A stretch of DNA of 64,000 nt from positions 290,581 to 354,580 of the forward strand of contig NZ_VTTI01000006.1 in NCBI RefSeq assembly GCF_008641105.1. Reading direction: 5' to 3'. The first letter of the stretch is position 1; each line of letters begins with the position of its first letter. The notes beneath the pieces are model-generated. The model was given only the letters and a program-made list of their open reading frames with translations. It did not search any database and had not been told where the DNA came from. The position numbers and the translations under genes were made by a program. Below are positions 12,046 to 38,674 of the stretch, in pieces. The stretch comes from Halopseudomonas salina. GTDB taxonomy: Bacteria; Pseudomonadota; Gammaproteobacteria; Pseudomonadales; Pseudomonadaceae.

Positions 12046-12092
12046 TTTCACGCGACATTTCATGCGACTGTTTCACGCGACATTTCATGCGA
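12046..12092. repeat. Tandem 22-bp duplication at the 3' end of ask
   Basis: A 22-base sequence occurs at 12046-12067 and identically at 12071-12092, separated by three bases. Each copy itself consists of two near-identical 12-base halves, so the element reads as four units of roughly TCGCRTGAAAYR on the minus strand. The first-transcribed copy covers the last codons and TGA stop of the aspartate kinase gene; the other lies just beyond it. Confidence 0.8.
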
Positions 12093-13515
12093 TAGCTATT
12101 ACATCGCCGTGGTTTTCGGGCTCGATGAGCGCGCGGTGCAAGGCAGCCACTGCAGCGTCGTAATCATCTTCATTGATAATACACTGCATTTCCACCTGGC
12201 GGATCGACTGGTGGATTGCCTGAATGCTGATATCGGCTGCGGCCAGCGCAGCGACCGTCTTGGCCAGAATACCTTTTACCTTCAGGTCCGAGCCGATCGC
12301 GGAGACGATGGCAATATTATGCACGTGCACTTCCGCCATGGGGTACTTCTCTTCGATCAGGCGTGCAGCGCGATTGATCATCTTCCGGGAACCGGACGCG
12401 TAGTAGGTGATGCTGTTGGCATCGGAATCCTTGTTAACTACATACAGCTTGAGCTGTTTGAGTAGCTTGGTTATCTCGATGTCATAGGCCACATCGCCCA
12501 GCATTTCCTGGTCGAATACCTCAAGACCAAAGACGTCCTTGCGACCGGCGATAATCTCTACGCAGGGCTTTTCGCTGCAATAATCCTGGCTGATCAAGGT
12601 GCCCGCATGATCCGGCTCGAAGGCATTCTTGATGCGTAGCTGTATGCCCGCGCGACGCAATGTACGTGCCGCCTTGGGATGGATTGCTTCCATGCCGAGA
12701 TTGGACAACTGATCGGCTACGTCATAATTGGTGCGGCCTATGGTGACCACATTGTCCAACCCAACCAGGTTCGGATCGGCACTGGAAAGGTGATATTCCT
12801 TGTGGATCACCGCTTCGCGAGCGCTGGTTGTGGCAGCAATCTGGGCGAAAGTGATTTCACTGTAGCCGCGGTCGAAAGTATTCATCTGACCTTCACTGCA
12901 GTGGGTATAGCCTGTGGCTACCACCAGCTCCTTGCTCAGGTCGATCCCGGCAAAGCTGTCCTTGATCATTTCCAGAAACGGTTTGGGTTCTGCCTGGTTC
13001 CAGCCCGTGAGGTCGACCAGGCGGGCGTTGACGCCATACTTCTTCAGGGCCAGGACTGTATTGAAAGCACTGTGTGCTTCGCCCAGTGAAGCCAGCATCT
13101 CGCGCACCTTCATCAGATGCTCGGTGAGCTGAAAGTGGCCATAGGTGCACAGTTGCTGCAGGCTGAGCATGCAGTCACGAACGTCACCTATGCGGCCTTC
13201 AATAAAGCGATCAGCTGCCTGACGCTCATATTCACCGCTGAACAGTTCGGCGTTCTTGGCCTGCATGCTGACCAGTACCGCATCAAGCGCGTCCAGCCAG
13301 GCATCTTCGTTCTGTGCGTCGGCAAAACGCTCGTAGACGCCGGGCTCACCGGATTTTTTGTGTTCCAGCAGCAAGTTGGTCATGCCACCGTAAGCGGAAA
13401 CCACAAAGACGCGATTATACAGCTCGCTTTTCTTGCGGTCGCCAATGAAAAGGGTGTCGAGTACTTCATCAAAGCGGCTCATCGAGGTGCCGCCGATTTT
13501 TTCTACTGTATGCAT
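12085..13515 (-). CDS. ask: Ectoine-specific aspartate kinase Ask_Ect
   Basis: 476 residues from the ATG at 13515 (MHTVEKIGGTSM), preferred over one three codons earlier because GAG lies just upstream. It has the aspartokinase catalytic motif VEKIGGTSM, the GYTHCSEGQMNTFDRGYSE core and two C-terminal ACT-like segments (about 330-470, VHNIAIVSAIGSDLKVKG; ADISIQAIHQSIRQVEMQCII). Kinases embedded in ectoine clusters form a distinct subfamily thought to be insensitive to normal threonine/lysine feedback. Fourth gene of ectABC-ask, 128 bases after ectC. Makes aspartyl phosphate, the first step toward ectoine. Confidence 0.93.
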   Translation of the reverse strand: MHTVEKIGGTSMSRFDEVLDTLFIGDRKKSELYNRVFVVSAYGGMTNLLLEHKKSGEPGVYERFADAQNEDAWLDALDAVLVSMQAKNAELFSGEYERQAADRFIEGRIGDVRDCMLSLQQLCTYGHFQLTEHLMKVREMLASLGEAHSAFNTVLALKKYGVNARLVDLTGWNQAEPKPFLEMIKDSFAGIDLSKELVVATGYTHCSEGQMNTFDRGYSEITFAQIAATTSAREAVIHKEYHLSSADPNLVGLDNVVTIGRTNYDVADQLSNLGMEAIHPKAARTLRRAGIQLRIKNAFEPDHAGTLISQDYCSEKPCVEIIAGRKDVFGLEVFDQEMLGDVAYDIEITKLLKQLKLYVVNKDSDANSITYYASGSRKMINRAARLIEEKYPMAEVHVHNIAIVSAIGSDLKVKGILAKTVAALAAADISIQAIHQSIRQVEMQCIINEDDYDAAVAALHRALIEPENHGDVIAIA

Positions 13516-13643
13516 AATTCTCATTTTGCGTTGGTGAATGTTGCTCGCATCCCTCGCGGGTGCGGGTGACTTCTTACCAACGGCTTCAGCCGTCGCTGCC
13601 GGCGCAGACGCATAGTCGGTGCGCCTTTGCCGGCGGCGGGCAA

Positions 13644-14042
13644 TCAGCCAGAAACGCTATCATCAACCGGATAGACGCCATCCTTGTCGTGCACTTCCTT
13701 GCCGCTCAAAGGCGGATTGAATACGCAGGCCATTTTCATGTCGGTCTTGCCGCCACGCAGCCAGTGCTCATCGTTCTTGTCGAGAATGTAGAGCACGCCT
13801 GGCTCGATCTTGTAGACCTTGCCATCCGAGATAGTTTCGATCTCGCCGTCACCACTCATGCAGTACACCGACTCAAGGTGGTTCTTGTACCAGATGTGCG
13901 TCGTGGTACCGGCATAGATGGTAGTGATGTGAAAGGAAAAGCCCATATTGTCGTCTTTCAACAACATGCGGGTGCTTTCCCAGTTATCCGACTTGACCCG
14001 GCGATCCGAGGCTTCGCAATCCTTCAGTGTACGTACGATCAT
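13644..14042 (-). CDS. ectC: L-ectoine synthase EctC
   Basis: 132-residue cupin that cyclises N-gamma-acetyl-diaminobutyrate to ectoine with loss of water. The N-terminal [16 protein letters not shown] and the cupin core [32 protein letters not shown], plus the C-terminal [21 protein letters not shown], are near-invariant EctC features; Glu (in HLESVY), Tyr and His residues of the metal site are present. Starts 12 bases after ectB on the same strand. No ectD (hydroxylase) or ectR follows within the window. Confidence 0.97.
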
Positions 14043-14054
14043 ATTCCGTTCTCC

Positions 14055-15341
14055 TCAAGATGCCTGTTCGGCAGTGTCTTCGTTCATGACTTTCGCAAAT
14101 GCTGCTTCGAGAATCGTCATGGCTTGGTCGATCTGTTGTTCGGTGATAACTAGCGGGGCGAGGCACTTGACTACCTGGCTGTGATTGCCGCTCGTTTCAA
14201 TTACCAGGCCATGCTGGAATGCTTCGCGGCAGATTGCTGATGCAATCTCACCGTTGGGGCAGCTGATGCCGACCATCATGCCGCGACCCTTGACGAACAA
14301 GGAATCGGGGCCGTGCTTGCGGACGATCTTCTGCATCCGTTCCTTGACCATTTTGCCCTTGGCCTGGACGCTCTTGGCGAACTCGTCAGTGGTCCAGAAG
14401 TGCTCCATGGCGGCAGCTGCGGTGACGAAGGCCAGGTTGTTGCCTCTAAAGGTACCGTTGTGCTCGCCCGGTTCCCACTGGTCCAGCTCCCGACGCATTA
14501 CCACAACCGCAAAGGGCAGACCGTAGCCGCTCAGCGATTTGGACAGGGTAATAATGTCTGGCTGAATGCCCATGCCCTCAAAGCTGAAGAAAGTACCAGT
14601 ACGGCCACAGCCAGCCTGGATGTCATCGGCAATCAGCAGCATGCCGTGCTTCTTGCATAGCTTCTGCAGTTTGCGCATCCATTCGGCTGATGCGGTATTC
14701 AGACCGCCTTCACCCTGGACCACTTCCACAATAACGGCAGCGGGCTTGTCGATGCCGCTGCTGGGGTCGCTCAACAGTTTGTCCATCATCGAGATGGTGT
14801 TCACGCCTTCACCGAAGTAGTTGGCATAGGGCATGCGGCTGACGTCGGTCAGCGGGACGCCTGCGGCACCACGGTGATGCTGGTTGCCGGTCACGGCCAG
14901 TGCGCCAACGGTAACGCCGTGGAAGCCATTGGTGAAGCTGATGACGTTATTACGGCCAGTTACCTTGCGGGCGAGCTTCAGCGCGGCTTCTACCGAGTTG
15001 GTACCGGTAGGGCCGCTGAACTGGGTCACGTAGTCACCGAAACCGCGCGGCTCGAGAATGATCCGATGAAACGCCTCGAGGAAGGTCTCCTTGGCACCTG
15101 AATACATGTCCAGACCGTGGGTGATGCCGTCGTCGGAAATATAGTCAATCAGGGCCTTTTTCAGAACCGGGTGGTTGTGGCCGTAATTCAGCGTGCCGGC
15201 GCCGGCTAGAAAGTCAATATAGTGCTTGCCTTCGCTGGTGATCAGTTCCGCGCCGCGCGCCTGTTTGAACAGGACGGGGAAGGAACGGCAATAGCTGCGG
15301 ATGCCGGACTCATGTTTTTCGAATTGTTCGAAGTTGCTCAT
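14055..15341 (-). CDS. ectB: Diaminobutyrate-2-oxoglutarate transaminase EctB
   Basis: 428 residues from the ATG at 15341, which has GGAGA at a proper distance; an upstream ATG six codons earlier lacks one. Class III PLP aminotransferase: QFSGPTGTNSVEAALKLARKVTGR near residue 100, IADDIQAGCGRTGTFFSFE with the cofactor-binding Asp, and TLSKSLSGYGLPFAVV with the PLP lysine (about residue 267). Converts aspartate semialdehyde to L-2,4-diaminobutyrate, using glutamate. Sits between ectA and ectC with gaps of 22 and 12 bases. Confidence 0.97.
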   Translation of the reverse strand: MSNFEQFEKHESGIRSYCRSFPVLFKQARGAELITSEGKHYIDFLAGAGTLNYGHNHPVLKKALIDYISDDGITHGLDMYSGAKETFLEAFHRIILEPRGFGDYVTQFSGPTGTNSVEAALKLARKVTGRNNVISFTNGFHGVTVGALAVTGNQHHRGAAGVPLTDVSRMPYANYFGEGVNTISMMDKLLSDPSSGIDKPAAVIVEVVQGEGGLNTASAEWMRKLQKLCKKHGMLLIADDIQAGCGRTGTFFSFEGMGIQPDIITLSKSLSGYGLPFAVVVMRRELDQWEPGEHNGTFRGNNLAFVTAAAAMEHFWTTDEFAKSVQAKGKMVKERMQKIVRKHGPDSLFVKGRGMMVGISCPNGEIASAICREAFQHGLVIETSGNHSQVVKCLAPLVITEQQIDQAMTILEAAFAKVMNEDTAEQAS

Positions 15342-15363
15342 GGTATCTCCTGATATCAAATTC

Positions 15364-17817: not shown

Positions 17818-18588
17818 CTAGAGTGTAAAGCCCCCATCAATGGGGATGATATTGCCGGTCATGTAGGCTCCTGCGGTGCTGGCCAGCATGATAGCCAGGG
17901 CAGCCATCTCCTCCTCACGTCCCCAGCGCTTCATGGGGATAAACTTGCAGTCCTCGGCCAATGCCGCTGGATCACTCTGGATGTGGCTGGTCATCTTGCT
18001 CGGGAAACGTCCCGGCGCAATAACGTTGACATTGATGTGTTCGCCGACCAGCTCCTTGGCGAGCATGCGCGACAACTGATGCACCGCTGCCTTGCTTGGC
18101 CCGTAGGAATAGGCCTGTTCGCCGAAGGCACTGATGCCGGCAACAGATCCGATGTTGATCACCCGGGCCGGGCTCGTGCCCGAACCGGCTTTGCGCAGCA
18201 GCGGCAGCAACTGCTGGATGCAGCTGAATACCGAGGTCACGTTCAGTTGCATGACCTTCTCCCAGCCTTTGACTGGAAATTCCTCCAGGGGCGCACCCCA
18301 ACTGGTCCCCGCGTTATTGACCAGGATATCCAGTTGCTGGCAGTGCGCCTGCAAATCGGTATACAGCTGACGCGCGCCCTCCTCGGAGGATAGGTCGGCG
18401 CTCAGTGCCAGGCACTCACCGTACTGGCCCAGCTCCTTGGCTGTCGCCTCGCATTCGTCCAGCTTGCGGCTGCAGATAATGACGCGGGCGCCAGCCTCCA
18501 GAAACCCCCTGGCGATCATCTTGCCGATTCCACGGCTGCCGCCGGTCACTAGTGCGGTGCGACCAGCCAGGCTGAAATATTGCTGCAT
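17818..18588 (-). CDS. rhlG: RhlG-like NADPH-dependent 3-oxoacyl reductase (SDR family)
   Basis: 256-residue classical SDR: TGGSRGIGKMIARG cofactor loop (residues 14-21), NNAGTSWGAPLEEFPVKGWEKVMQLNV, active site with Ser in INIGSVAG and YGPSKAAVHQ (Tyr-x3-Lys), and a C-terminal GAYMTGNIIPIDGGF. Compared from memory it is very like P. aeruginosa RhlG along its length. RhlG was proposed to draw fatty-acid intermediates toward rhamnolipid or PHA lipids. No rhlA/rhlB is present nearby, so here it may have a general beta-ketoacyl role. Confidence 0.82.
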   Translation of the reverse strand: MQQYFSLAGRTALVTGGSRGIGKMIARGFLEAGARVIICSRKLDECEATAKELGQYGECLALSADLSSEEGARQLYTDLQAHCQQLDILVNNAGTSWGAPLEEFPVKGWEKVMQLNVTSVFSCIQQLLPLLRKAGSGTSPARVINIGSVAGISAFGEQAYSYGPSKAAVHQLSRMLAKELVGEHINVNVIAPGRFPSKMTSHIQSDPAALAEDCKFIPMKRWGREEEMAALAIMLASTAGAYMTGNIIPIDGGFTL

Positions 18589-20776: not shown

Positions 20777-23455
20777 TCAAAAACGTTGCTGCCATTGGCC
20801 CATGAGAACCTGCATGGGTGGCGCGTCCGCCTGATGTCCAGGCTCTCGGATGCCCAGCCAGGACAGCTTGACGTCCCTGTTGCCCGGCAGACGCTTGCGC
20901 CAGAATGCCTCGAGATTCATCTGACGTCCGTCAGGCGCGAGATTCAGAGTCAACGACTGCATGTCGAACAGGTTGCCGTTGTAGCCGGTGGCGACGTTGA
21001 CGCGGGTATCGGCAGATTCAACTCGCAGGGGCTGCTGGAACACCAGCCCCAGGTCTTCGCTGCCGCGGTTATAGACACCTGACACTAGCCAGCTGCTGCT
21101 GAGCACTCGGCCCAGGTCACCGAACAGCCCCGCGCCATCCACTTGCGTCTGGCCCATATAGCCCGCATGCTCGATCGCCAATGCGCCCAGGCGCATATGG
21201 CCCCGCACACCGGCATACAAGGTCTGACTGGAGCTGGACAGATCCAGTGCCCCGCGCCCGCGGCTGTCGAACAGGCCATCACGACCCCGCAGATAGCCCG
21301 CTTCGAGGGTCGCCGCATAGGTGCTGGTGGTGCTACTCAATCCGATAGACATGCCGTGACGCAGGGCGCTGGCCGCACTGGTGATTTCAAGGCTGGCGTA
21401 CCCGAGAGGTATCCGTTGGCGCATGGCCAGAGCCTGCTCTCCCTGCTGTTGCAACCAGAATGGCGAGGCCATCCCGGTATCAAGTTGGCTCAATCCGGAC
21501 AGGGAGGCCCGGTCATCGAGCATATCCATACTGTCCACCTGACCAATCGAAAGGGATTGACCGTTGCCCTGGCTAAGGGTCATTACCAGACTGTCTTCCC
21601 GGCCCTCTGCGGAAAACCGGGTAAAGCGCTGCTGGTCGCGGATTTCCGTCGCCTGGCTACGACTCAGTCTGGTGAAGCCCCGGCCACTGTCATACCGAAA
21701 GTCCCGTGGCGTCAGCATCTGACCCAGGTCTATCGCAAAACCCGCACTCAACTGGTCGGTAGTCATCACCTGCAGGCCGGCCAAGGGGTTGGCACTGCCG
21801 AAGGGGGCACCCAACACCAGCGCGGAGCCAGCCACCGGTAAGGCCTTGCCGTTTGCGCTGACCACAGTCAGCGTGCCCACTGGCCGAGTAGCCAGTTCCA
21901 AGTCAAGCAAGCCCTGGCCATAGAGGCTTGTGTCCGCGTATCGACCTTCCTTGTTGGCAGTGTAGAAGAGCCGCTGCACAACCTGATCGCTGGACAGGGT
22001 CGGGAATGCCTGGCTGACTACAGCCAGTGCACCCGTCACCGCAGGGGTTGCCATCGAGGTGCCAGAGAACCTTCCATAGCGGTCGTCGCCCAGATTGATA
22101 CTCGAGACAATGTCGGTACCCGGCGCTACCAGGCACCACTGCGCCGCGTCTCCGCAGGCGTTGGAAAACGATGAGAGAACCCCGGTATTCGAATCCACGC
22201 TGGCAACGGCGATCCAGTGGTTTTGCAGCTCGGGATACAAGGAGGGAAGTGCTGCAAATACCAGGGGCTGATCCAAATCCTCATTGCCGGTTGCCCAGAC
22301 ATACACGCGCTGATCAGCAACGCCGGTCTGCCATTCGGCAAGGAGTGCCGGAAATGCGCTCTCGATGGTGGCCCGCCCGGCGTCGGCTACGGTGACATCG
22401 ATGCCCCAACTGTTGTTGAACCAGCGGGCACCGTTGTTGCGCGCCCAGGCAAAGCCGGTAGCCAATTGCTGGTCAGAGGCAGTGATTTCGTCGGCGTCAT
22501 TGGTGAAGCGCACGTTCAGCAACTGCGCCCCGTAGGCGTAGCCAACAGTCCCGGTGTTGTTGCGGCGTGCGGCCAGGATGCCGGCCACGTGAGTACCGTG
22601 GTCACCGCTGTCGCTGCCGGCCTGGGCCGAGGTCTCGTTGGTCAGCACGTTATAGTGACCCGCTATCTGACCGTTCAATTCGATGTGCGTACTGCGCACG
22701 CCGCTGTCGATTATCGCGATCCGGCTACCGGCGCCGGTAAAGCCACGCTCGTGGGCGATGTGGCCGTAAGTCAGATTATAGCCGTTGGTAAGTGCGTGCT
22801 CGTTGGACAGGGGCAGCAGCTTGTCGGCGGGGTTCTCCGGTCCTGGCTCGGGCCCGTACTCCGGGGTTGGGTCAGGGTCGGTGGGCTCGGGGGCGGGCTC
22901 CTCGGTCGGCGGTGGGGTAGGCGAAACGGGTGATGTGGGCAGGCCGGGAGTTTCATCGACAATCGGATCCTCGACAGGCGCGCTATTTCCACCGCCACCA
23001 CCACCACCACCACCTGCTGCTGCGGCTATACCCGCTACTGCCGCACCACCCAACAGCCAGCCGGTACTGATGCCGCCGTTGTTACTGGCGTCGGCAGATG
23101 CGACAGAGGTAACGGAGGATGCGCCGTATCGGCTTTGCAGCATCTGCTCGAGCAGCGCTGACTGGGTAGTGCTGACCATGCCGAGCGTTTCCACGTAGAC
23201 CGACAGGCCGGCCTCACGGCTGCGGTTTATCATCGGGGTTGCGGCAGTGCGCAGGGCCAGATCCGATCGAGCTGCCGCATCGAGAAGGTTTTGCAGTTCA
23301 GCAGAGCTTATCCGGTTCTGGTATCCGGGATAATTTCCTGCCGCCGCTATCGCTTCAGCCAGGGGTGAACCGCTTTGCTGGGCCAGTAGCGTGGTTGGAA
23401 AGGCCAGAGCCAGAGCGGAGGTCAGGCAAGCCAGACGCAGGGTAGTAGCCGACAT
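20777..23455 (-). CDS. Subtilisin-like serine protease autotransporter (type V secretion)
   Basis: 892 residues. Signal peptide (about 1-25, ends TTLLAQ), an N-terminal helical part, a glycine-run linker (nine Gly at about 146-154), a Pro/Glu/Asp-rich spacer, then an S8 peptidase domain (about 235-510) with all three catalytic motifs: Asp in IAIIDSGV, His in HGTHVAGI and Ser in SGTSMATPAV. The remaining 370 residues look like beta-strand repeats and end in Phe, as expected for an outer-membrane barrel. Related proteases release or mature surface proteins in Pseudomonas. The barrel assignment rests on composition and the terminal Phe. Confidence 0.85.
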   Translation of the reverse strand: MSATTLRLACLTSALALAFPTTLLAQQSGSPLAEAIAAAGNYPGYQNRISSAELQNLLDAAARSDLALRTAATPMINRSREAGLSVYVETLGMVSTTQSALLEQMLQSRYGASSVTSVASADASNNGGISTGWLLGGAAVAGIAAAAGGGGGGGGGNSAPVEDPIVDETPGLPTSPVSPTPPPTEEPAPEPTDPDPTPEYGPEPGPENPADKLLPLSNEHALTNGYNLTYGHIAHERGFTGAGSRIAIIDSGVRSTHIELNGQIAGHYNVLTNETSAQAGSDSGDHGTHVAGILAARRNNTGTVGYAYGAQLLNVRFTNDADEITASDQQLATGFAWARNNGARWFNNSWGIDVTVADAGRATIESAFPALLAEWQTGVADQRVYVWATGNEDLDQPLVFAALPSLYPELQNHWIAVASVDSNTGVLSSFSNACGDAAQWCLVAPGTDIVSSINLGDDRYGRFSGTSMATPAVTGALAVVSQAFPTLSSDQVVQRLFYTANKEGRYADTSLYGQGLLDLELATRPVGTLTVVSANGKALPVAGSALVLGAPFGSANPLAGLQVMTTDQLSAGFAIDLGQMLTPRDFRYDSGRGFTRLSRSQATEIRDQQRFTRFSAEGREDSLVMTLSQGNGQSLSIGQVDSMDMLDDRASLSGLSQLDTGMASPFWLQQQGEQALAMRQRIPLGYASLEITSAASALRHGMSIGLSSTTSTYAATLEAGYLRGRDGLFDSRGRGALDLSSSSQTLYAGVRGHMRLGALAIEHAGYMGQTQVDGAGLFGDLGRVLSSSWLVSGVYNRGSEDLGLVFQQPLRVESADTRVNVATGYNGNLFDMQSLTLNLAPDGRQMNLEAFWRKRLPGNRDVKLSWLGIREPGHQADAPPMQVLMGQWQQRF

Positions 23456-23564: not shown

Positions 23565-24245
23565 TCAGTCAGCCCAACCGCCGCAAACGGGAAATACCTG
23601 ACCGACGAAACAGTTTGCCGCATCGCTGCAGAGATACGCAGCGAACTGTGCATCCTCATCCGCAGTAACCAGACGACCCAGGGGGACCTCCCGTTTTACC
23701 CGCTCCTGAAAAGCGGGGTTGTCCTGGATTTCCTGCGGGAAGTAGGTTGGGTTATCGACAAAGTTCTGGGCAATCGCATTGACCTGAATGTTGTGCTTCG
23801 CCACTTCCACCCCGACTGCGCGCACGTAAGCCAGTTGCGCACCCCGTGCGGCACTGTAGCTGGACGCCCGCTTCATGCCGCGCAGTGCCGAAGCGCTGCC
23901 CATAAGCAGGACCTTGCCGCGCTGACGCTCGATCATGCCCGGCAATACGGCGCGAACCAGGCGTTGCAGGGGATCGACCATGCGCTCGAACATCAATCGC
24001 CATTCGGCATCGTCGACTTTTTCAGCGGGGGTGGAGGGTGCCGGTACGCCGAGATTGATCAGCAGTACATCCAGCTCCCCGCTTTGCGCAATCAGTTCGT
24101 CTGCGGCATGGGGCTCCACCAGGGTGGTGGTGCTGGAAATGACATCGGCACCACACTGGATGAGTGTCTGCTTCAGCACCGGGCCCATGAATACATCTGC
24201 CTGGGTCAGCAAGATTCGTTTGCCGGCTAGATCGGGAAATGCCAT
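23565..24245 (-). CDS. Probable halohydrin dehalogenase (divergent SDR with Ser-Tyr-Arg triad)
   Basis: 226 residues from the ATG at 24245 with AGGAG upstream. The fold is SDR-like but the dinucleotide loop is lost: in its place is LTQADVFMGP, which fits T-x4-F-x-G (Thr14, Phe19, Gly21), the halide/nucleotide-pocket fingerprint of halohydrin dehalogenases. The catalytic residues are Ser117, Tyr130 and Arg134, fitting S-x12-Y-x3-R; ordinary SDRs have Lys at the last place. A loop NFVDNPTYFP and terminal GQVFPVCGGW recall HheC. Such enzymes turn vicinal haloalcohols into epoxides plus halide. It follows an epoxide hydrolase gene by 28 bases. Activity is inference; a non-catalytic SDR is the alternative. 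Confidence 0.72.
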   Translation of the reverse strand: MAFPDLAGKRILLTQADVFMGPVLKQTLIQCGADVISSTTTLVEPHAADELIAQSGELDVLLINLGVPAPSTPAEKVDDAEWRLMFERMVDPLQRLVRAVLPGMIERQRGKVLLMGSASALRGMKRASSYSAARGAQLAYVRAVGVEVAKHNIQVNAIAQNFVDNPTYFPQEIQDNPAFQERVKREVPLGRLVTADEDAQFAAYLCSDAANCFVGQVFPVCGGWAD

Positions 24246-24273
24246 TGACGATGCTCCTGTTGCGTTCTTTTTT

Positions 24274-25236
24274 TCAATAATGCTGATGCAGGAAGGCGAG
24301 TAGCAGTTCATTGACCTGCTGTGGCTTTTCACCCTGAATCCAGTGGCCACAATCATCCAGCACGTGTTGCTCCACCAGCGGCACCACAGCCGGCATCTTC
24401 TTGATTGTATAGGCCTCTAGCTCCCCCACAGGGTCCTGATCCCCAATCAGAAAGAGTGCCGGCTGCAGTATCTTCTGGCCGGCGAGCCCGGCGGTACGTT
24501 CCCAGTTGCGCTCGAAGTTGCGATACCAACTGACCGGACCGTGGAAACCGCTTTGCTGGAAGGTTTTCACATAGACCTCGAACGCCTCTGGCGGGCACCA
24601 GGCGGGCGGGCTTCCAGGATCGATCCGGTCATCCAGCCAGCGGGCGTCGGCCGGCTTGTCCTGCACCAGGGTACTGCCGCCGGCGGTACCGGACATGCCA
24701 TGCATCATGACGCGCATGGTTCGAGGTATATCCTCGGCCATCTCCGCCTCTGCCAGGCCAGGTTTCTGGAAGTACAGCATGTAATGGAAGCGGTCCTGGT
24801 AAAGCTCGCGCATTACCTCGATGGCCGGTCTCTTGGGGCGACCGCCAAAGGGTACCGACATGCCGCAGACAACCTTGACCCGCTTGGGTTCCAGTAGCGC
24901 CAGGTGCCATGCAACAGGTGCGCCCCAGTCGTGACCGATCATGGCGACCTGCTCATGCCCCAATACCTGCATGGCTGCCTGAATATCAGCGCATAGGGTT
25001 ATCAGGTCGTAAGCGCCAGGATCGTTAGGGGCACTGGTTTCACCGTAGCCGCGCATTTCAGGTACATGTACGTGATAACCCATGGCTGCCAACGCTTCGA
25101 TCTGATGACGCCAGGAATACCAGCACTCTGGAAATCCGTGCAGTAGCCAGACGGGGCGGCCATCCTGCGGACCTGCGGTATGCAAACTCAGGCGGATACC
25201 GTTTACATCGAGCATCTGGTGTTCAGTTGGGCACAT
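24274..25236 (-). CDS. Soluble epoxide hydrolase (alpha/beta hydrolase)
   Basis: 320 residues from the ATG at 25236 with GGAG five bases upstream. Oxyanion motif HGFPE (33-37) with WYSWRHQ, nucleophile Asp103 in GHDWGAP, acid Asp268 in GDQDPV and base His298 in DDCGHW. The cap holds the epoxide-activating tyrosines: one in YMLYFQKPG (about 152-156) and Tyr238 in SWYRNFERNW, close to mammalian soluble epoxide hydrolase. It opens epoxides to diols. With the downstream dehalogenase-like gene it would form a haloalcohol to epoxide to diol route. A haloalkane dehalogenase is less likely because of the two tyrosines and HGFPE. Confidence 0.88.
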   Translation of the reverse strand: MCPTEHQMLDVNGIRLSLHTAGPQDGRPVWLLHGFPECWYSWRHQIEALAAMGYHVHVPEMRGYGETSAPNDPGAYDLITLCADIQAAMQVLGHEQVAMIGHDWGAPVAWHLALLEPKRVKVVCGMSVPFGGRPKRPAIEVMRELYQDRFHYMLYFQKPGLAEAEMAEDIPRTMRVMMHGMSGTAGGSTLVQDKPADARWLDDRIDPGSPPAWCPPEAFEVYVKTFQQSGFHGPVSWYRNFERNWERTAGLAGQKILQPALFLIGDQDPVGELEAYTIKKMPAVVPLVEQHVLDDCGHWIQGEKPQQVNELLLAFLHQHY

Positions 25237-25406: not shown

Positions 25407-26021
25407 TCAGACCAGGCCGAGGGCAATCAGCAATGCGCACCCACTGATGACCAGCGCAACGATACTGATCACAAGGCTGAGCTTGGCGGTTTTATCTGGC
25501 ACCGGTGGCGGAGAATCGGGGTGCGGGTCCGTCATTGCCAATACGGTACGCGCAGGCGCAGAGGCGCGGGCCTCGACCACCGGGATGGTTGGGTCGGGTA
25601 CACCTTGCAGCAACTGCATCACGCGTTCGACCAGGTGGTGATCGAAGCGATAGGGGTCAAAAGTATCGAAGCCGTGCTCTTCCAGTAGCTTGAGCATGTG
25701 CTCATCGACGGGGACATACTTCATCGACCAGTCAGGGAAGGAGAGCCGCTTGATCGGCTCGCTGGCAAGCACTTTCAGATCCTTATGGCGAGGGTCCTTG
25801 AGCAGAGTCTTGTAAAGAGCCTGCACCTTGGAGGTTTCACCCTCCAGACACTGAAAGAAGCAGCCATCGCCATAGTACAACATGCCGACCAGCCCGTTCT
25901 TGCGATTGTTTGTGCGCGAAGTTGACAGTATTCGCGCTACCGTGGGTTCGATTCCGTCATTGGCTTTGGATATGGGAAAAGTGGCGCGGCTTATATAGAC
26001 AATGCGAATCAGATCGGTCAT
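25407..26021 (-). CDS. BLUF-domain blue-light receptor with C-terminal membrane helix
   Basis: 204 residues. The N-terminal BLUF domain (about 4-105) has the flavin-site residues: Tyr9 in IVYIS, Asn in RTNNRKNGLVGML (38-42), Gln57 in FFQCLEGE, and a Trp/Met pair in FPDWSM. A linker rich in Pro and Asp (about 140-175) leads to one hydrophobic helix (about 180-203, LVISIVALVISGCALLIALG) at the extreme C-terminus. There is no attached EAL or other output domain, so signalling would be through a partner or the membrane. Stand-alone BLUF proteins control motility or biofilm in other bacteria; a role here is unknown. Confidence 0.88.
   Translation of the reverse strand: MTDLIRIVYISRATFPISKANDGIEPTVARILSTSRTNNRKNGLVGMLYYGDGCFFQCLEGETSKVQALYKTLLKDPRHKDLKVLASEPIKRLSFPDWSMKYVPVDEHMLKLLEEHGFDTFDPYRFDHHLVERVMQLLQGVPDPTIPVVEARASAPARTVLAMTDPHPDSPPPVPDKTAKLSLVISIVALVISGCALLIALGLV

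Positions 26022-36557: not shown

Positions 36558-38674
<2,117 letters not shown>

Follow-up and report, generated by a model that had tools for sequence, protein, structure and literature searches.

A predicted operon of an epoxide hydrolase gene and a D-type halohydrin dehalogenase gene in Halopseudomonas

The two genes and their predicted products

On the minus strand of the window (the whole 64,000-nt stretch of DNA that was analysed), a gene for a putative epoxide hydrolase (EH) is followed in the 5' to 3' direction, after 28 nt, by hheD, the predicted gene of a halohydrin dehalogenase (HHDH) with the fold of the short-chain dehydrogenases/reductases (SDRs) (Table 1). Longer open reading frames are possible for both, extending to 25308 for the EH and to 24356 for hheD; alignments with orthologues from the genus begin at residues 1-5 of the shorter versions. 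Immediately upstream of the EH gene, on the same strand, lies a gene for a BLUF blue-light sensor (25407-26021), retained in several, not all, relatives, and downstream of hheD a gene for a subtilase of 892 aa (20777-23455), present in some relatives only. The C-terminal tail of the subtilase looks like an autotransporter barrel, and autotransporter models match it below their cut-offs. Farther along the minus strand (12085-15359) are aspartokinase-like and class-III aminotransferase genes, which are possibly part of an ectoine cluster. No Rfam family at gathering score and no tRNA were found in the whole window, and the promoter and terminator scan gave no signal above that of shuffled sequences, with 0 promoter-like sites at the locus and 1.2 in the shuffles.

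Table 1 Features of the hheD locus, in window coordinates
Feature	Position	Strand	Basis
hheD: predicted D-type halohydrin dehalogenase (HheD), 226 aa, SDR fold without NAD motif	23565..24245	-	sequence, motifs, fold
HHDH motif 1, T14-x4-F19-x-G21; predicted nucleophile/halide pocket replacing the glycine-rich NAD loop	24183..24206	-	translation and alignment of 34 homologues
HHDH motif 2, predicted catalytic S117-x12-Y130-x3-R134	23844..23897	-	translation and alignment of 34 homologues
28-nt gap between the genes; Shine-Dalgarno-like AGGAG at 24254-24258 ahead of the hheD ATG	24246..24273	-	sequence
Predicted epoxide hydrolase (EH), alpha/beta hydrolase with cap, 320 aa, EphA-like	24274..25236	-	Pfam, PDB sequence and fold matches
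Predicted EH nucleophile Asp103 (GHDWGA)	24928..24930	-	D in 36/36 aligned orthologues, window included
Predicted EH charge-relay Asp268	24433..24435	-	D in 36/36 aligned orthologues, window included
Predicted EH catalytic His298	24343..24345	-	H in 36/36 aligned orthologues, window included

As a class, HHDHs are homotetramers that dehalogenate vicinal haloalcohols with no cofactor. They are told apart from SDRs by two fingerprints, an N-terminal T-X4-F/Y-X-G and a catalytic S-X12-Y-X3-R (PMC4989007), and have lost the SDR nucleotide motif T-G/A-X3-G/A-X-G (PMC11976700). The original prediction had read both fingerprints in an SDR-like protein, and the translation confirms T14, F19, G21, S117, Y130 and R134, with TQADVFMG standing where the SDR nucleotide motif would be. 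These six residues and M20 are invariant among 34 aligned homologues. Both motifs are present in all 89 related genomic stretches (some of them from one same genome) and, among the database matches listed, in 119 of 120 homologues, the one left over being a 184-aa fragment that lacks the N terminus; this rules out a chance match to the motifs. The window also encodes an ordinary SDR (17818-18588), in which TGGSRGIG and S-Y-K take their place and neither HHDH motif occurs.

The best solved relative of the protein is HheD2 (PDB 7b73, a halohydrin dehalogenase; PMC9629495), with 324 bits, an E value of 3.5e-96 and 148 of 220 residues identical (67%), followed by HheD8 (PDB 8xxb, 303 bits, 62% identity) and HheB (PDB 4zd6, 182 bits, 44% identity). 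HheD2 and HheD8 have the same motifs and fold. A fold search with an AlphaFold2 model (mean pLDDT 85) returned HHDHs at ranks 1-9, the closest being HheD2, HheD8 (8xxb, named there as a mutant in complex with chloride) and HheB, and the first NAD-dependent SDR at rank 10. Residues 120-124 fall below a pLDDT of 50, and because this loop is poorly modelled we use the fold matches only and make no claim on pocket geometry. A tree was also built by a quick method; its outgroup branches are very long, its HheC and 6a41 rows are partial, and its fine branching was not used. In this tree the protein groups with HHDHs and not with NAD(P)-using SDRs.

All four features by which we recognise an HHDH, namely motif 1, motif 2, loss of the SDR motif and the nearest relatives, were thus found, and on sequence grounds the 226-residue protein is a D-type halohydrin dehalogenase, HheD, of predicted activity. 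The subtype follows from the 67% and 62% identity to proven HheDs, in line with the 57-95% given for new HheDs in the 2016 review, whereas the 44% identity to HheB does not fit the less than 30% that it gives between subtypes (PMC4989007), and the tree, in which the join of 8xxb with HheB was flagged as one of long branches, does not resolve the boundary between D and B. By its sequence the window's HheD is a distinct species variant, differing from known HheDs in neither motif; its identity to P0026, an H. pelagia protein among the homologues listed, is 77%.

We give practically no credence to the reading that this is an ordinary NAD(P)-dependent SDR carrying the motifs by chance. Pfam does place the protein in adh_short and adh_short_C2, and the sources label its homologues as SDR family oxidoreductase or 2-keto-3-deoxy-L-fuconate dehydrogenase, but the glycine-rich motif is gone, the Lys is replaced by Arg, and the best 25 of 188 NCBIfam SDR models all score well short of their cut-offs (101 bits vs 222 for the highest), quite apart from the identity to HheD2 and the separation from NAD-dependent SDRs in tree and fold search. 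The identification as a halohydrin dehalogenase made in the original prediction therefore stands, and the two checks proposed with it, family placement and retention of the motifs in close relatives, both came out in its favour.

The gene upstream of hheD is predicted to encode an EphA-like EH with its triad and cap tyrosines intact, as had been proposed, and the same-strand spacing of 28 bases was also read correctly. EphA of Mycobacterium thermoresistibile (PDB 5cw2) is the top structure both by sequence (269 bits) and by fold (43% identity in the fold match). The attributes of an alpha/beta-hydrolase EH, an Asp nucleophile, a His with an acid, the HGFP oxyanion motif and cap tyrosines, are all found: HGFP, D103, D268, H298, Y152, Y155, Y222 and Y238 are invariant in the 36 aligned orthologues, window included. 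Cap tyrosines in EHs act on the epoxide ring; EphA also has tyrosines at the positions of Tyr152, 155 and 238, and the triad and cap tyrosines are common to the two proteins.

Pairing and probable gain and loss of hheD in Halopseudomonas

The survey covered the genus to which H. laoshanensis (L002, G001) belongs, with 37 species genomes and thresholds of E ≤ 1e-60 for hheD and E ≤ 1e-40 for the EH. Twenty-two carry hheD, and 36 carry the EH, G027 with merely a contig-end piece of it. Of the 22 genomes with hheD, 17 have it next to the EH gene and on the same strand; in G019 it lies 2.1 kb from the EH gene, in G023, G030 and G034 it is away from it, and in G029 no EH was found at E ≤ 1e-40. The gap between the two genes, measured in 19 loci covering the 17 genomes (L001/L064 and L004/L069 gave the same values and were taken as repeats), ranges from -4 nt, an overlap found in four of them (G001, G016, G017 and G035), up to +69 nt. 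Same strand, short gap and conserved adjacency are therefore found together, and the tight spacing in 17 genomes supports the prediction that the EH gene and hheD form a small operon. Of the earlier claim of one operon, the spacing and the survey of gene context in related genomes speak in favour, and the operon itself stays a prediction.

An initial scan had given 63 loci, of which one (L063) proved to be an ordinary SDR. An orthologue of the window's EH is found in 10 of the 62 HheD-bearing loci that are left (L001-L009 and L011, many contigs being short), all of the Halopseudomonas group, and the nearest named relatives of the window are Pseudomonas or Halopseudomonas records. The divergence of the EH and that of HheD correlate (r 0.91 for 17 genomes, 136 non-independent pairs), for which shared descent alone would suffice. 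Comparison of five loci, with most dS near or past saturation and one EH pair of unequal length omitted, gives dN far below dS for both genes (for hheD against L001, 0.084 and 1.44).

HheD itself is not new in these bacteria. HheD12 of Pseudomonas pelagia CL-AP6 was found in 2014, and PMC6922532 reports that, of the marine species considered from the P. pertucinogena lineage, all but P. litoralis have an HheD orthologue, as does P. xinjiangensis; HheDs had thus been reported from this lineage, now Halopseudomonas, by 2018. The term 'epoxide hydrolase' occurs 0 times in the paper (PMC6922532). Our literature searches returned no report of the Halopseudomonas hheD-EH pair, and we make no claim that it is unreported. 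The original prediction knew of few HHDHs in Pseudomonas-like bacteria. This does not hold for the genus, given its 22 genomes with hheD and a lineage already described (PMC6922532), though in a sample of 398 Pseudomonadaceae (23 with hheD) only one genome outside the genus has it.

In the same 398 genomes, at a threshold of E ≤ 1e-100, the EH is present in 167. It is found without hheD in 15 of the 37 genus genomes, and of the 167 family genomes that have it at least 144 lack hheD; since it is so widespread without hheD it has a job of its own. This breadth favours a reading in which both enzymes are real and form no pathway: the EH would serve an older, separate purpose (general removal of epoxides or epoxy fatty acids), and hheD would have landed behind it and use its promoter. 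The genomes G023, G030 and G034, which keep the EH among its usual neighbours and carry a different hheD lineage elsewhere, point the same way. Against it, the adjacency with short gaps and 4-nt overlaps persists down to about 70% protein identity, and we consider this reading a serious one that is nonetheless unlikely.

We compared the EH loci of 14 of the 15 genus genomes without hheD (G027 was left out), and the EH gene occupies the same site in species that lack hheD. The gene speA lies beyond the EH gene, as in the window, in 12 of the 14, and in the other two the contigs end first; homologues of MacB and TolC are on the other side in 11. Behind the EH gene, 10 of the 12 loci with EH and speA have open reading frames of ~217-229 aa and ~545-582 aa (L092 and L096 differ), which, to judge by the sequences of two of these loci, would encode a membrane protein and a LigB-like ligase. 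In L003, frames of the same sizes (sizes compared, not sequences) follow hheD, so that hheD there would lie between the EH gene and that pair. The G019 and G026 loci (L101 and L092) are ~95% identical on both flanks, with ~1.07 kb containing hheD in G019 vs ~150 nt in G026; relative to G019, hheD was probably lost from G026 by a clean deletion of ~1 kb.

When the EH tree is rooted on eight further Pseudomonadaceae, the presence of syntenic hheD takes 4 changes. Its spread over deep forks, several of them weak, fits a single early gain of hheD behind the EH gene followed by several losses. In the eight outgroup loci the ~6 kb to each side of the EH gene contain no other marker gene of the window, and the EH is therefore at another site there. 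The hheD genes of G023, G030, G029 and G034 (L104-L107; L032, L035 and L045 are the same loci as those of G030, G029 and G034) form a clade of their own with support 100 (rows L084, L032, L035 and L045). None of these four is near the EH gene. The two hheD lineages would represent separate acquisitions or a replacement; in L045 the second-lineage gene is near EAL/GGDEF, SMC-like and nitronate monooxygenase genes. Taken together, Halopseudomonas probably gained hheD behind an EH gene that was already older and then lost it again in places, a direction of gain that we infer from these comparisons. Spread of hheD on plasmids was considered and rejected: 36 plasmid records match at E ≤ 1e-20, every one below 60% identity.

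Neighbours of hheD outside Halopseudomonas

Most other HheD loci have no EH gene nearby and their neighbours are scattered (helicase, GGDEF, transporter and ABC1 kinase genes among them), which again suits two enzymes that work apart; many of these loci end within a few kb, and neighbour counts are rough, as ORF calling leaves shadow ORFs in G+C-rich loci. Beyond the ten with an orthologue of the window's EH, the one exception among the 62 loci is L047, from a Burkholderiales MAG (G009, contig 8), where a different EH-like gene (GHDWGA), whose best PDB match is 5bov ('putative epoxide hydrolase protein'), stands directly after hheD. This partner, unrelated to the EH of the window, counts against the reading without a pathway. 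In 399 Burkholderiales genomes, of which 26 have hheD, an EH of the L047 type is beside hheD only in G009 (flanks of ~1.5 kb or less).

In L047 (6772-15367) hheD and the EH-like gene have a MetE-like gene on one side and a tetronate set on the other, which is accompanied by TctC and an MBL hydrolase. The set comprises LtnD (465 bits, cut-off 350), OtnK (620, cut-off 350), OtnC (325, cut-off 250) and OtnI (357, cut-off 325), and this context hints, in one genome only, at a C4 acid as substrate. HheDs might then serve a natural, non-pollutant route from a halohydrin or epoxy acid to a dihydroxy acid: in Halopseudomonas hheD would have been plugged in behind the older EH, and in L047, where hheD and the EH-like gene precede a complete set for L-threonate/tetronate catabolism, the substrate would be a C4 halohydrin or epoxy acid and the diol product 2,3,4-trihydroxybutanoate. 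We consider this proposal improbable.

A convergent alpha/beta hydrolase gene adjoins hheD in 17 Comamonadaceae/Burkholderiales loci. It was rejected as a second EH in 11 of the 17, which have GHSMGG, with a Ser nucleophile; the remaining six, in which the motif pattern matched neither the Asp nor the Ser form, may be of either kind. For the one in L027 (8671-9684) the closest PDB entry is 4f0j, a 'probable hydrolytic enzyme' (E 7e-122).

Proposed pathway and its significance

Epoxide hydrolases convert epoxides to diols, and in Agrobacterium radiobacter AD1 the EH partner of the HHDH HheC is named EchA. The HheC gene of A. radiobacter is in an operon with the EH gene, and joint action on haloalcohols was predicted (PMC11976700); a partner of the same kind there is a further argument against two unconnected enzymes. 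HHDH chemistry is established (PMC4989007), and with the known EH chemistry and the HheC/EH precedent, halohydrin to epoxide to diol is the natural reading of the Halopseudomonas pair. The AD1 genes are together in one operon, like the predicted pair of the window, whereas HheC is just 31% identical to the window's HheD (across the aligned part of a partial HheC row), and the EH of the window is the first gene and EphA-like. According to the 2016 review, only two of the HHDH genes then known were in an operon with an EH (PMC4989007). HheC is one such gene, and HheD12 of P. pelagia may be the other.

We therefore favour, and hold to be quite probable, a two-gene operon with the EH gene first and hheD second, whose products would act in series from halohydrin through epoxide to diol and halide, the EH being the older gene, and hheD having been placed behind it, co-inherited with it and lost in several species. 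Since the EH is older and more widespread than hheD, the pathway would have come about by joining hheD to a pre-existing EH. We infer catalysis, co-transcription, serial use and the substrate, and halohydrin-to-diol chemistry in series is our best prediction.

In HheD, Ser117 and Arg134 would set up Tyr130 as the base, which would take the hydroxyl proton of a vicinal halohydrin, and the oxygen would displace the halide into the pocket lined by T14, F19 and G21, giving the epoxide with no cofactor. In the EH, Asp103 would attack the epoxide to form an ester while the cap tyrosines activate the ring oxygen, and His298 and Asp268 would activate the water that releases the vicinal diol. The net conversion of a halohydrin to a diol and halide would most likely be a detoxification or salvage step.

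In reverse, HHDHs take a wide range of anions, and the same review, with its two EH operons, allows for other physiological functions (PMC4989007). HheD could accordingly run ring-opening in the cell, with nitrite, cyanide, halide or another anion and an epoxide, in competition with the EH. We judge this very unlikely: an EH made from the same operon would use up the epoxide, and a Pfam scan of 31 window proteins, a subset of the window ORFs, recognised no nitrite- or cyanide-handling gene. No halogenase and no obvious diol pathway were seen among these 31 proteins. Marine brominated or chlorinated compounds, the substrates suggested earlier for the serial pathway, are plausible, with support from nothing in the window.

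The Halopseudomonas pair bears on the physiological role of the HHDHs. The enzyme type itself is known, and what merits pursuit is the conserved placement of hheD as an addition behind an older EH, retained across the genus in species that include the cultured H. laoshanensis, H. aestusnigri, H. oceani and H. pachastrellae; H. aestusnigri and H. oceani have the adjacent pair in L006 and L007. The natural presence and absence of hheD at one chromosomal site (G019 vs G026) makes the role testable, and the genus offers matched HHDH/EH pairs for biocatalysis. A zinc-type alcohol dehydrogenase gene (37472-38674), divergent from a LysR regulator gene (36558-37532), lies 12 kb from the pair and is a possible but unlinked user of the diol.
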